Source of the DNA: a virus
Virus record (IMG/VR): IMGVR_UViG_3300046003_001495
Span: 1 to 28,917 of that record
DNA length: 28,917 bases
Strand: one strand, 5' to 3'
Made by a program: the position numbers and the translations under genes. The notes beneath the pieces are model-generated. The model was not told where the DNA came from, did not search any database, and saw only the letters and a list, made by a program, of their open reading frames with translations. The first letter of the stretch is position 1; the number at the start of each line of letters is the position of its first letter. This document shows positions 4,401 through 28,787 of this stretch, one piece after another.

Positions 4401-5785
4401 CTAAAATCTACTTGCTGATTTATATTCAGCATCTCTACCCACAACAACAAGCGGTTTGATAATTCCTGTTTGAAACCTTGCATATTGTGAGGCGAATACC
4501 GATGTGATTAAGTAACGTGTTAAATCTACAATGTGACCAAATGGCTGGTAACTTACTTTGGTCACAGGATCGGTTACTGTGCGCTTATCTACTTTTCCGT
4601 TTTTATCCTCTTTGGTATTCTCAAAATCTAATATTGCCACGCGGCAACTTTCATCAGCTATAAAACTAATGCCTTGCTCATTGTAGCCTAATATCGCATT
4701 AAAGAAATCGGCACTCGGGCGCACATTTGGATTTGATTTAGCCACTCTGCGAATCGGTTTAACTTCATCTAATTCGTTAATTAGTAAGCGGAACAAATCA
4801 AAGCCCTTTTCTTGTTTAACGTCATCCTTTTGCGATGTGCTATCGCCACACACATAAACATGTCCGTTATGCTTCCAATGTCGAAGTCGTTGCATTATAG
4901 CCCTGCCCATTGCTTTGGTTGTGTTATCGGGGTTTTTTAGCGCAATGCAATCAATCAATCTTATTTCGTTGTCATCACTAATTTGAAAGATGCCACATGG
5001 AAAGTAAGGGTTTACGTTTTCATCAAACGAAAGCCAAACTGCTAATGATGGGTCATAGGTTACAATGCCAGTGTGTTTGATAGTTGACCAACTTTTAAGA
5101 AATTCGCCACCAAAATCAACTTTGCCCCATTCGCCTAAAACATAAACTTTGTGCAGGTTTGGGTTTGCTTTAACACGTTCGGTTAAGTGATGGATGTAAT
5201 CGGCATCTAAAAACGAATTATCTTTATACGTTGTATTCATCAACATGGTTTCAGCATCGGGTTCATCAAAGAATCTGCGCTTTATCCAGTGTTGCTCACT
5301 TATTGGGTTAAATGTAATAATAAACTGTTTGTAGTTATTCGTTTCGCCTCGCACCCTTAACTCTAACTGATTAAAATCTAATTCATCCAACTCGGTTGCT
5401 TCCTCACACCAAACTGATGTGATGCCTGCAATTGATTTAATTTTTTCGGGGTCATCCATTCCGGCACAAAGTATTTCGTTGCCTGTTGGATTGTGTGTAA
5501 AGCGCATCTCACTTTTGTTTATCGTAAATTCGCTAAATATATCGTATTCTAATAGCTTATCAACAAATAACTGATACACACTATTACGAATTGTTGTTGC
5601 TACTTTTCTAATGCAAAGAATGCGATGCCCTTGCTCGGTTGTTATGCGCAAAATTATCTTTTGAACTGCCGCTATGGATTTGCCCGATCCAATCAGCCCG
5701 CCCCGCCTTTCAATACCAAGTATCTATGTTGGCTTGAAAGTGCGGGGCGGTATGCTTCGTTAATTTTTACTTTACTTTTTAGCAT
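4401..5785 (-). CDS. Terminase large subunit, reading frame interrupted inside the Walker A motif
   Basis: The packaging ATPase/nuclease. Translation from ATG 5785 (overlapping the end of the small terminase gene by 14 bases) gives MLKSKVKINEAYRPALSSQH, then RYLVLKGGAG and a TGA at 5695-5693. The rest of the protein continues in another frame as GSGKSIAAVQKIILRITTEQ, so the P-loop is split between two frames. Downstream: Walker B-like SVWCEEATELDE, motif III-like ITFNPISEQHW, and a nuclease half with acidic residues in WLSFDEN, VYVCGDSTSQKDD and GHIVDLTRYL. The interval is 1385 bases, not a multiple of three; removing 8 bases gives a 458-residue protein with GGAGSGKS. A TTG at 5651 is open but would lose the P-loop, so it is not a credible start. 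The break may be recoding, a true mutation or an assembly error. The family is certain; the state of the gene is not. Confidence 0.85.
5698..5750 (-). repeat. GC-rich 20-bp hairpin in the terminase coding sequence, just before the frame break
   Basis: Plus-strand arms CCGCCCCGC (5698-5706) and GCGGGGCGG (5742-5750) pair perfectly. CTTTCAA (5707-5713) pairs with TTGAAAG (5734-5740) after a one-base bulge, and CCAA (5716-5719) pairs with TTGG (5729-5732). That is 20 base pairs with a nine-base terminal loop, in a genome that is otherwise AT-rich. In the mRNA (minus strand) the hairpin ends two bases before the in-frame TGA at 5695-5693. It has no T-tract after it, so it does not look like a terminator. 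Confidence 0.85.
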
Positions 5786-6038
5786 CTACAAATTCTACTT
5801 GCCACATTTTAACCGCTTCACCTTTTGTAGTCAAATCAGCATTAACAGATGTTGGAATAAGTTTAGCAGCCAACTTGTAAAACTCGGTTGGGTTTTCTTT
5901 TGCCCAATTAGTCAGTTTAGCTTCTTTGTCTTCCTGTAACTCACTAAACGCTATTTCAAACGCTTCTTTTACCGATTTGGTTAGTTTATTAGTTGCTCCT
6001 TTTGGTTTTCCTTTGTTGCCTTTTTCAAATTGTGCCAT
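5772..6038 (-). CDS. Terminase small subunit candidate (DUF5681-like N-terminus)
   Basis: 88 residues starting MAQFEKGNKGKPKGATNKLT, which matches the 'F.kGn.grPkGa.Nk.tk.vkE' start typical of a short DNA-binding domain found next to large terminase genes in Bacteroidota phages. The rest is helical and charged (KEAFEIAFSELQEDKEAKLT) and ends VEFVDAKK. Its last 14 bases overlap the true start of the large terminase, which supports both starts. The role would be recognition of the packaging site, possibly the 10-base repeats just upstream (6041-6081). It is small for a TerS, so an accessory packaging protein is the alternative. Confidence 0.65.
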   Translation of the reverse strand: MAQFEKGNKGKPKGATNKLTKSVKEAFEIAFSELQEDKEAKLTNWAKENPTEFYKLAAKLIPTSVNADLTTKGEAVKMWQVEFVDAKK

Positions 6039-17403: not shown

Positions 17404-17585
17404 CACGCAACACACGCTACACTAATGGCACAGAGGTTATAACTTTTGTTAAGATTGATTTTATTGCAATCGGTGGTCGCAAGATTGACCACGTTTACTT
17501 TAGGCGAAAAGATAAACACGATTTGATAATGCCTTTGGTGGAATGGAATATTAAGGGTAAATTTGAATGGGAAATAATTAATTGA
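17400..17585 (+). CDS. Small hypothetical protein between endolysin and PAPS-reductase-like gene
   Basis: 61 residues, overlapping the endolysin stop as ATGA and ending in TGATG with the next gene. Strand-rich and basic (ITFVKIDFIAIGGRKIDHVY, then MPLVEWNIKGKFEWEI). Not recognised. It is probably co-translated with its neighbours. Confidence 0.55.
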   Translation: MTRNTRYTNGTEVITFVKIDFIAIGGRKIDHVYFRRKDKHDLIMPLVEWNIKGKFEWEIIN

Positions 17586-18394
17586 TGAAAACAATAAATA
17601 GTTTAAGCGGAGGTAAAACCTCAAGTTATTTAGCAGCCCATTACCCTGCTGATTATAATCTATTTGCTCTTGTTAAAATTGATGATGTAAAATGCGCCCC
17701 AAAAGACAAAGCACTTGTAAAATTTATATCCGATAAAATAGGAGAAGAATTTATTGCAACTGCTGAATCTGATATGACACTAAAAGCAGTTATTGACTTG
17801 GAGCAAATGATAGGTCAAGAAATTATTTGGGTACACGGACTATCATTTGAGAAAATGATGAAAAAGAAAAGTGCAATGCCAAATATGGAGTGGAGGTTTT
17901 GCACAACTGAAATGAAGATGAGACCTATATTTGATTGGTGGTTTAAAAACATAAATGAAAAGTGTAAAATGGGCATAGGTTTCAGATACGATGAATTGGA
18001 ACGAGCAAGCAGATTGTCAACTACATTTAAGGGCATTATAGGAAAGTCAAAAAATGGCAATAGAAATAAGTGGGGTGAGTTAGAATGGAGGGAGGGTTAT
18101 TTTCCATTGATTGAAAATAAAGTTACTCATTTGCAAGTAAAAAAATGGGCTGATTCAACAAACTTAATTTTTCCATCTGATTCAAATTGCGTTGGTTGTT
18201 TTCATAAGCCATTACAACAATTGCGTAAAAATTGGGATTTAGAAACTGAAAAGATGCAATGGTTTTCAGACCAAGAAAAAAAGGCTAAATGGAAAAAAGA
18301 GGCTACCTTTGCACAAATAAAAACAATAGGTTTGCAACAAGACTTTAACTTTGGCACTGGAAGCGGTTGTCAAGCAGGTTTTTGCACTGATTAA
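17585..18394 (+). CDS. PAPS-reductase-like / N-type ATP pyrophosphatase (PP-loop) protein
   Basis: 269 residues from ATG 17585 (TGATG overlap). The N-terminal SLSGGKTSSYLA (about residues 6-17) is the SGGKxS PP-loop that binds and adenylates with ATP, as in CysH, DndC and related phage 'phosphoadenosine phosphosulfate reductase' proteins. Further Cys-containing motifs: WRFCTTEMK (about 100-108), DSNCVGCFHKP (about 202-212) and GSGCQAGFC at the very end; together they could hold an Fe-S cluster as in DndC or related enzymes. Substrate is unknown. Such genes in phages are often linked to modification of DNA or small molecules. It lies between lysis genes, so it is an insertion of a metabolic or modification gene. 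Confidence 0.8.
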   Translation: MKTINSLSGGKTSSYLAAHYPADYNLFALVKIDDVKCAPKDKALVKFISDKIGEEFIATAESDMTLKAVIDLEQMIGQEIIWVHGLSFEKMMKKKSAMPNMEWRFCTTEMKMRPIFDWWFKNINEKCKMGIGFRYDELERASRLSTTFKGIIGKSKNGNRNKWGELEWREGYFPLIENKVTHLQVKKWADSTNLIFPSDSNCVGCFHKPLQQLRKNWDLETEKMQWFSDQEKKAKWKKEATFAQIKTIGLQQDFNFGTGSGCQAGFCTD

Positions 18395-26290: not shown

Positions 26291-26759
26291 TTCTTGTCTT
26301 GAATTGTACCGTTAAACTTTAACACCCACATAATGCTCTCAATAGCTTCTGCCCATTGTTCATCATTCATTTGATTTGGGTCTGTTTGATAATAAAAACG
26401 GATGAGTGCATTTTGACGCGCAAACTCATCCGTTTCAAATAACCGCTTTGCCGAATCTAATTTTTTTTTAGTTCACCCGCTTCGGTTTCTAACATCGGCA
26501 AAATTGTTCTTGCTGCGCTACGTAATGCTTTAAAATCACTGATAATAGCATTTACATCGCCATCAACACAAAGTGTTCTTAAAAACGATTCTACACCCAT
26601 CAATTCATCTTTAGCAATTAACGCGCTAACGGTCTTGTAAGCAATCCTATCCATTTCACGCAAGTGAACTGTAATAGGTGCGCCTTGTCTGTTCAATACC
26701 GTTAATGTGTATATTTCAACACCAGCATACTTTGATTTTAATTCTTCAATATTATTCAT
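26287..26759 (-). CDS. Tail assembly chaperone, long form made by -1 frameshift
   Basis: The short product stops at 26457. In the -1 frame an ORF without its own start runs from the slippery site to TGA 26289-26287: LDSAKRLFETDEFARQNALI, then RFYYQTDPNQMNDEQWAEAI and a helical end. It ends in ATGA with the tape measure start. Slippery heptamer A AAA AAA (26469-26463) precedes the stop TAG. The fusion would be about 157 residues. Two overlapping chaperone frames directly before the tape measure gene is the conserved G/GT arrangement. A 12-bp perfect hairpin (26396-26435) lies 25 bases downstream. Confidence 0.75.
26396..26435 (-). repeat. 12-bp perfect inverted repeat downstream of the frameshift site
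   Basis: AAACGGATGAGT (26396-26407) and ACTCATCCGTTT (26424-26435) are exact reverse complements around a 16-base loop, inside the extension frame. In the mRNA the stem starts 25 bases after the slip site. It may stimulate frameshifting, possibly as part of a pseudoknot, although typical spacers are 5-9 bases. Confidence 0.7.
26457..26759 (-). CDS. Tail assembly chaperone, short form (G-like)
   Basis: 100 residues (MNNIEELKSKYAGVEIYTLT; VHLREMDRIAYKTVSALI; ending GELKKN). Acidic, helical, small, located between the tube and tape measure genes, as for all gpG-type chaperones. It binds the tape measure and recruits tube protein in assembly. The last codons CTA AAA AAA AAT TAG contain the slip site for the long form. 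Confidence 0.8.
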   Translation of the reverse strand: MNNIEELKSKYAGVEIYTLTVLNRQGAPITVHLREMDRIAYKTVSALIAKDELMGVESFLRTLCVDGDVNAIISDFKALRSAARTILPMLETEAGELKKN

Positions 26760-27221: not shown

Positions 27222-28787
27222 TTATACTGATTTTACGAAGCCTACGTTTATTTTAATGATACGTGCAACACCTAAAGGAACATTTTGCAATGTCAATTCT
27301 AATGTGCTTGTCGCTAAAACATCTTGGGCTGGATTAATAATAACTTTATGTGCTGATAATTCGCCATCGGCTTCCATTTGAACTAATGGATTGTTTGCTA
27401 ATGTTTCAAAATAACCTATTGTGCCTGCGGTTAGTGTGCCATCTGCATTCACTCTCAATGGTGAACTTAATGCAGGTAACATATTGGCTCTAACAACACG
27501 TGTGATTTTTTGGTAAACACGATTGTTTTCGATTGTTGAATAATCGCTTGTAGGTGTAACAGTTGTTTTGCTATCACTCCAATAGCTACCAGTGATTCCT
27601 GTTAACTTGCGTAAGAAAATATAAGAGTAGTTATTCAAGCTCTCAAATTGACTATCAGCAAGCGCAGTATATAATTGACCGTTGCTGAATGCGATAGTGT
27701 CTAATTCGCTTCCTAATGCCATATTAAACTTGCTTACCCATCCTATTGATTCGCTTACAACTGCTAAAGATACCGCGCCTAACATTGCACCAATAGCACC
27801 AACTGATTTGCCAGTTGCTTTGTAGATGTAATATCCAGCATTTGCGCCATCCTGTGCAATACATACGCTTACATTTGGAGCAGTTTGTGTTGATAGGTCA
27901 ACTAATGATGCCACACTTGCAGTTGCGCTGATTTCAGCGTTTAACATTATTTGCATTGGCTTGTAAACCGCTTCGTTAGCAGTTGCAATAGCTTGCAATG
28001 CTGCACATTGTGCCGCTGCGAAAACTACGTTCTTTTCAAACACTGCCATTTGCTTAATAGCACCACTTGCATAATTCTGCATTAATGTTAACGCTGCAAA
28101 TGTGTATGTGCTTGCTTCTTCTTCGTATAAACCAACATACAATTCGCCTTTAGCTTGTATTCTAAAATACTCGCTAATGTGGTAATGTAATGTGTCAATC
28201 CATGATGCAACACCTAACACTGTTGAACCGCTACCTGTTGGTTGTGTCCATACAGTTGTAACACCACCACCTGTTACTGTTGATGCGTAAGGAGTGCCAG
28301 TGTTTGGGAAAATACCCTCACCGCTTTTAGTTGTCACAAGTAAATTAGCACTTGGTGAACCAGAAACAACATTTGTTGCACTAAAGCCATGTGTTTGTGT
28401 TCCCGCGTTTATAGCCGCTGCAATACCTGTTGCTGCGGTTGTTGCACTTACAGCATCGGCACTTGTTAATGTATAAGTTGCTAATACAGTTTCAACACCT
28501 AAGATGCCAGTGTAAGTAATTGCAACGGTATTACCTGCGGCAGGTGTCCCACCGATAACCGCCTTTGCTACCGCTGCCGTTTCGCCTAAATGTGTATTAG
28601 TAATTCCTAAATTTTCAGCATCTGCAACTGAAAATATTTTTTTGATTCTGTCGCTTGAAGTAAAGCCAGTTGGTAATGTGCCACCACTTGGATAGTAATG
28701 TGCATAACCCGAAATGTAATCTGTGCCGGGTAATGCTCTACCTAAACCGCTTGTACTTTTGACAAAGTTTATATTTGGTAATGCCAT
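27222..28787 (-). CDS. Tail sheath protein
   Basis: 521 residues. N-terminus ALPNINFVKSTSGLGRALPG with ISGYAHYYPSGGTLP is that of DUF2586-like contractile sheath proteins of Bacteroidota phages. The conserved C-terminal domain is visible: FLRKLTGITGSYWSDSKTTV, then YSTIENNRVYQKITRVVRAN and PLVQMEADGELSAHKVIINP. Residues about 85-190 form an Ala/Thr-rich beta insertion (AATGIAAAINAGTQTHGFSA; LLVTTKSGEGIFPNTGTPYA), a typical variable outer domain of sheaths. It contracts on adsorption to drive the tube. The start lies only about 20 bases after a strong terminator. Confidence 0.9.
   Translation of the reverse strand: MALPNINFVKSTSGLGRALPGTDYISGYAHYYPSGGTLPTGFTSSDRIKKIFSVADAENLGITNTHLGETAAVAKAVIGGTPAAGNTVAITYTGILGVETVLATYTLTSADAVSATTAATGIAAAINAGTQTHGFSATNVVSGSPSANLLVTTKSGEGIFPNTGTPYASTVTGGGVTTVWTQPTGSGSTVLGVASWIDTLHYHISEYFRIQAKGELYVGLYEEEASTYTFAALTLMQNYASGAIKQMAVFEKNVVFAAAQCAALQAIATANEAVYKPMQIMLNAEISATASVASLVDLSTQTAPNVSVCIAQDGANAGYYIYKATGKSVGAIGAMLGAVSLAVVSESIGWVSKFNMALGSELDTIAFSNGQLYTALADSQFESLNNYSYIFLRKLTGITGSYWSDSKTTVTPTSDYSTIENNRVYQKITRVVRANMLPALSSPLRVNADGTLTAGTIGYFETLANNPLVQMEADGELSAHKVIINPAQDVLATSTLELTLQNVPLGVARIIKINVGFVKSV

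Follow-up and report, generated by a model that had tools for sequence, protein, structure and literature searches.

A probable 8-nt translational bypass at the P-loop of a phage large-terminase gene

How can a virus make its large terminase (TerL) from a gene that is broken inside the catalytic P-loop? This question is raised by a 28.9-kb uncultivated virus record (28,917 nt, analyzed in full and hereafter called the window), on whose minus strand the TerL gene is split over two frames. A first-pass annotation, made from the sequence letters, had placed the break in the Walker A motif and had named a dead phage, a recoding event, and a sequence error as its possible causes. We confirm the break: from the ATG at 5785, the gene reads MLKSKVKINEAYRPALSSQHRYLVLKGGAG, ending in KGGAG, and then meets a TGA stop (5695-5693), while GSGKS lies in another frame. 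Omitting TGATTGGA (5695-5688) gives KGGAGSGKS. The 5-nt gap TGATT occupies 5695-5691, the landing codon GGA 5690-5688, and SGKS restarts at TCG 5687. On comparative sequence evidence, we propose that TerL is probably made from the broken gene by programmed translational bypassing of these 8 nt, similar in kind to that of phage T4 gene 60 (probability roughly 80%). The features concerned are listed below; carriers are the 41 sequences, window included, that share the broken junction.

4401..5785, minus strand: TerL gene, ATPase N-terminus in one frame and remainder in another; the downstream part matches Terminase_3 (PF04466, E = 5e-43)
5693..5785, minus strand: TerL 5' reading frame by translation, 30 codons, ending KGGAG and then TGA
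5698..5750, minus strand: hairpin by folding, with a 9-bp G+C outer stem, a middle stem, a 5-bp inner stem, and a 9-nt loop
5696..5698, minus strand: take-off codon GGC (Gly); GGC in 39/41 carriers, GGT in 2/41
5693..5695, minus strand: stop codon TGA immediately after take-off; TGA in 38/41 carriers, TAA in 3/41
5688..5695, minus strand: 8-nt coding gap, TGATT plus GGA, the stretch proposed to be skipped; a 5-nt gap plus a GGN landing codon in 41/41 carriers
4404..5687, minus strand: resumed TerL frame, SGKS to the C-terminus (stop 4403-4401); open, with a carrier dN/dS of 0.038
5772..6038, minus strand: upstream gene in the small-terminase position; weak matches to PHROGs of unknown function

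The downstream frame is the -1 (equivalently +8) frame and stays open for 429 codons from the landing GGA. Its PF04466 profile match, together with the Walker A motif, places the protein in the Terminase_3/TerL family. The intact equivalent of the window TerL, encoded by locus L004, matches the structure of the Sf6 TerL gp2 (E = 4e-20), and the alignment is unbroken through GGAGSGKS/GGRGSGKS. From its position, the gene at 5772..6038 would be the small terminase. Cultured phages include no close relative: the best TerL protein identity is 31.5%, and DNA searches returned only 24-nt chance matches. Scans of the window for tRNAs and Rfam families, introns and ribozymes among them, found nothing. 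No splicing domain or intron was detected at the P-loop break, where the insert is 8 nt long.

The broken gene is widespread among relatives. We kept 80 of 117 relatives and added the window, L097, and L205, giving 83 sequences. The broken arrangement (stop, 5-nt gap, and GGN landing codon) is present in 41 of these; another 35 have an intact gene, and the remaining 7 are truncated at the P-loop or beyond it. The 40 carriers besides the window derive from 35 metagenomes. A DNA-pattern scan that was independent of the protein search also recovered 40 contigs with the same junction, all of them TerL genes of this family. In every carrier, the stop codon directly follows the take-off codon. The commonest junction is GGC-TGATT-GGC (23 carriers), followed by GGC-TGATT-GGA (12) and GGC-TAATT-GGA (3), while GGC-TGATT-GGT, GGT-TGAAT-GGC, and GGT-TGAAT-GGT occur once each. 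The gap sequences TGATT, TGAAT, and TAATT thus form three lineage-specific types.

We find that the broken gene is in use. Downstream of the break, dN/dS is 0.038 among carriers and 0.040 among intact genes (Nei-Gojobori method; 40 carriers and 34 intact genes; 578 and 251 pairs with downstream dS > 0.05, saturated dS values omitted from the means). This equality of purifying selection excludes the dead phage that had been considered at first. Conservation is highest in the N-terminal block. Furthermore, L004, which has no break and differs from the window at 10 of 1290 downstream nucleotides, encodes exactly the protein predicted for the window by an 8-nt skip. Two disjoint, out-of-frame coding parts therefore jointly specify one protein that is known from an intact gene.

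The spacing of the predicted product is also that of its family. Skipping 8 nt gives the P-loop pattern R-Y/F-x4-G-G/S-x-G/S-S/G-x-K in 41/41 carriers, as the first-pass annotation had anticipated for the window. The same spacing, with no insert, is found in all 107 loci that hold the motif among 129 scanned (39 distinct strings, with some loci repeating clade contigs) and in 34/34 readable intact clade members. Bypassing does have a weak point. Every carrier pairs one GGN codon with another, but take-off and landing codons are identical in only 24 of the 41; two mix GGC with GGT, and 15 have the third-base mismatch GGC to GGA. One T4 study, cited in PMC3014915, states in its title that minimal pairing can suffice.

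The chief rival is a -1 frameshift at the same codon, which had been suggested as a simpler alternative. Here, the P-site Gly-tRNA would move back one base (GGC to GGG), and the ribosome would read Leu-Ile/Asn-Gly-Ser-Gly-Lys-Ser, giving a TerL with three additional residues. Such re-pairing of GGC or GGT with GGG is possible in 37/41 carriers, no carrier has a stop in the -1 frame across the junction, and the product would still hold a GxxxxGKS string. Four carriers (L054, L068, L069, and L072) even have a U_UUA_AAG heptamer 15 nt upstream. However, no slippery X_XXY_YYZ heptamer is present in the other 37, and in 4/41 (GCT GGC or GCT GGT) the -1 codon is UGG, which Gly-tRNA cannot read. The shift would also add LIG or LNG in every carrier, an insert seen in 0/107 loci and 0/34 intact clade members, and it leaves a hairpin placed 5' of the site unexplained. 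Upstream of the junction, the open stretch of the -1 frame is just 11 codons long in 38/41 carriers. Exact spacing, the unseen three-residue insert, the scarcity of slippery heptamers, and the four junctions that cannot re-pair lead us to prefer bypassing and to regard the -1 shift as unlikely.

The remaining rivals are less probable still. The 8 nt might be removed before translation, by RNA processing or by DNA rearrangement at the strong hairpin that adjoins the insert, and intact versions such as L004 do exist. Yet intact and broken versions alternate together with divergent upstream modules, as recombinants would, the window has no Rfam intron or ribozyme match, and we know of no bacterial machinery that removes 8 nt; we consider removal improbable. 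Synthesis of two separate proteins, by termination and re-initiation at a start overlapping the stop, could draw on the CUG, UUG, or AUU found near the stop in the downstream frame of some carriers. No start codon position is common to the TGATT, TGAAT, and TAATT types, though, and the split would fall inside the P-loop, leaving the preceding strand on the other piece. Both this reading and gene decay with loss of function are at odds with the downstream selection and the conserved N-terminal block, and together they appear very improbable. All sequences are metagenomic contigs, so a sequencing or assembly artefact at the G+C-rich hairpin could be suspected. But the 40 other contigs, from 35 metagenomes, carry lineage-specific variants of the stop, the gap, and both hairpin arms, with the gap length fixed at 5 nt. 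An artefact is thus exceedingly improbable, and we exclude sequence error. Sequence error, a dead gene, re-initiation, and -1 frameshifting were all rejected as the main reading, and the recoding option, as a T4-like 8-nt bypass, is the one that gains support.

A hairpin lies immediately 5' of the junction in all carriers. In the window it spans 53 nt (5750-5698) with 21 bp, and its pairing extends as far as the first base of the take-off codon. The 65-nt stretch that contains it folds at -34.6 kcal/mol (z = -6.0), and none of 200 shuffled sequences is as stable. The 14 distinct carrier sequences all share this kind of fold (-29.3 to -34.8 kcal/mol), differing only in how the middle stem is registered. 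In contrast, 34 intact genes (20 distinct sequences) fold at -3.3 to -14.3 kcal/mol, except L004, a recombinant-looking intact gene that keeps a partial hairpin (-23.2 kcal/mol). The structure is an addition to the first-pass annotation, which had mentioned a hairpin only in proposing that close intact relatives without one would count against its reading. Such relatives do exist (33 of the 34 foldable genes), but they do not overturn bypassing; they support it, because stop, 8-nt insert, and hairpin occur together.

Among carriers, pairing holds in 94.2% of hairpin cells and in 126/126 cells of the outer 9 bp; for the same columns in intact genes, the overall figure is 53.8%. The outer stem has one CG-to-AU double change and some wobble-keeping changes (CG to UG or GC to GU). 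Covariation is thin: 416 of 500 shuffles reach the count of one double-changed pair, which by itself would not establish the structure. Low synonymous change is the stronger sign. Over the 54-nt hairpin region, carrier dS is 0.11 against 1.38 downstream (about 12-fold lower), whereas intact genes have 0.95 against 1.24, although recent spread of one cassette by recombination could account for part of this. The Gly-Ala codons in carriers are GGG (41/41) plus GCG or GCT, as the stem requires; intact genes use GGC, GGA, or GGT for Gly and, in 33/35, GCA for Ala. A take-off stem-loop enclosing the stop is not conserved in carriers, where only a 3-bp mini-hairpin folds, in those with GGC landing codons.

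We propose the following mechanism. The ribosome would read the first 27-40 TerL codons, unwinding the hairpin, and arrive at GGC (or GGT) while the stop codon occupies the A site. At this point the Gly-tRNA would release, the mRNA would slip by 8 nt, and the tRNA would re-pair with the next GGN codon. Decoding would restart at Ser, yielding a single standard TerL with KGGAGSGKS. The force for this forward movement probably comes from the hairpin as it refolds behind the ribosome. The inner 5-bp stem of the window fold ends 17 nt upstream of the P-site codon, a distance that would place it about where the mRNA leaves the ribosome. A pull of 8 nt would free one bulged base and seven further bases, which could close the next seven pairs. 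This match between hairpin geometry and an 8-nt movement is suggestive. The hop itself, the re-pairing, the role of the hairpin, and the efficiency of the process are what we infer from an architecture, a hairpin, and a product spacing that are conserved, with selection on both coding parts.

T4 gene 60 serves as the model here because it combines a Gly take-off codon before a stop with a 5' stem-loop that acts as a motor (PMC5009743). As described there and in PMC11194080, the top 5 bp of that stem-loop are thought to be paired just outside the ribosome at take-off, and further pairing pulls the mRNA. Other likenesses reported for gene 60 are a Gly landing codon in another frame, a position early in a phage gene, and relatives with uninterrupted genes (PMC5009743, PMC3014915, PMC11194080). 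There are also clear differences. The gene 60 gap is 50 nt rather than 8 nt, and the TerL element has one 21-bp hairpin that ends on the take-off codon. The window N-terminal peptide lacks KKYK, the T4 nascent-peptide signal, and take-off and landing codons are not always matched. Finally, the TerL element lies in a different gene and is found in 41 sequences, as against one phage for gene 60.

Other known systems are less similar. Our search of open-licence papers for a comparable terminase bypass led to a single candidate, that of Hau3. It also lies in a terminase gene, with KGWG preceding the take-off region, but as presented in PMC5009743 it relies on a UUA codon, not a stop, in Streptomyces, and the account there mentions no 5' hairpin. 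The byp elements of Magnusiomyces capitatus mitochondria are likewise short frame-breaking blocks that are bypassed; they are said to be independent of mRNA context, reflecting relaxed mitochondrial decoding (PMC5009743). Unlike these, the TerL element occupies one site in one phage gene and has a conserved hairpin. The stop hops of Weiss et al. (1987) also cross a stop between similar codons over a short distance, but they concern synthetic constructs in E. coli, in which a single residue is specified by 9 nt (PMC5009743). Terminase P-loop inteins share the insertion point, GGAG^SGKS, as in L329, but involve protein splicing and hundreds of codons instead of an 8-nt untranslated gap.

Bypassing is a known kind of event, and in phages T4 gene 60 is so far the one gene for which it has been firmly established. 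That shorter equivalents should exist has long been anticipated by reviewers (PMC5009743, section 42). An 8-nt natural gap over a stop, with a single large 5' hairpin, a P-loop site, and a wide, patchy distribution, was not found in the open-licence literature searched. The 41 natural sequences provide 14 distinct hairpin-junction versions of a minimal 8-nt gap, together with near-isogenic intact controls. The break sits in an essential enzyme, at an active site where errors cannot be tolerated. Two questions thereby become testable: how the ribosome is moved by a 5' hairpin, and why a phage keeps a break in an essential catalytic loop.

We searched for the element elsewhere with five DNA-pattern scans and two model searches. 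In one scan, 40 of 54 contigs were this terminase and 14 were unrelated chance contexts; in another, the figures were 36 of 45, the other nine being one unrelated family in another frame. Two further scans gave 40 of 57, with 17 chance matches, and 0 of 5. Looser patterns (gaps of 2-32 nt, other P-loop residues) returned only chance matches outside this TerL family. The first model search covered 617,955 bases without finding another copy: opposite-strand matches are the inverted repeat matching itself, and weak plus-strand matches (E = 1e-4 to 3) fall on the corresponding, homologous part of intact genes. The second, over 64 of the 128 loci L218-L345, gave only L272 below E = 1. This locus retains an element-type 5' arm, but its P-loop is 1 nt short. 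A second break in its match, close to the C-terminus, suggests an error-rich contig or a decaying recombinant, and we regard the contig as doubtful.

The intact form of TerL looks ancestral, since none of the 128 further loci examined as distant homologues shows the element. Of these, 125 have tblastn TerL matches, most at 31-62% identity and some repeating clade contigs, and some of the P-loops are not readable. Two TerLs of about 56% identity (L283 and L327) have the P-loops GGAGSSKS and GGAGSAKS rather than GGAGSGKS.

The distribution of the element is patchy. In a tree built from 74 downstream sequences (39 carriers and 35 intact; 58 different rows), the carrier/intact label must switch 19 times, and well-supported branches force at least 12 of these switches. 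The intact L061 and the carrier L054 are 93% identical overall but only 60% identical in the 60 nt at the P-loop. Identity is 85-98% in the next five 60-nt blocks upstream, then 77%, then below 55% beyond, and 82-100% in downstream blocks. Because close pairs can differ in just this block, the element behaves, in some cases at least, as a short cassette that is exchanged. Larger exchanges occur too: L031/L034 and other pairs differ throughout the upstream stretch.

What such a cassette might be for is a matter of speculation. The P-loop is the commonest TerL1 intein site in mycobacteriophages (PMC5050341), and a 43%-identical TerL (L329) has an intein exactly between GGAG and SGKS, the point of the 8-nt insert. 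The T4 gap may derive from a degenerate intron that protects against a homing nuclease (PMC5009743). The element could, speculatively, protect the P-loop site in the same manner. In its full form, this idea is of a hairpin-powered short hop within a mobile coding cassette of about 65 nt that leaves the protein unchanged yet shields the P-loop codons against homing endonucleases or inteins targeting this site; so stated, it is possible but doubtful. In L056, L060, and L073, the nuclease domain in the C-terminal part of TerL is interrupted by an intein-like insert of about 325 residues (GHF^C...HN^CD[IL]TRYL), and L056 has both this intein and the bypass element.

The nearest named phages, at the 31.5% TerL identity given above, infect Flavobacterium, and the sequences upstream of 11 window genes have no clear Shine-Dalgarno motif. 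A Bacteroidota host would fit both observations, which weakly suggest it; the host group probably differs from that of T4. The window genome is myovirus-like, with a tail sheath at 27222-28787, and a gene on its plus strand (17582-18394) resembles phage PAPS reductases (phrog_424). On the minus strand, 26759-26290 likely encodes a tail-assembly chaperone pair. Its 100-aa frame ends GELKKN* at a nine-A run near 26465, and the -1 frame continues LDSAKRLFETDEF..., making the pair a candidate for ordinary -1 frameshifting.
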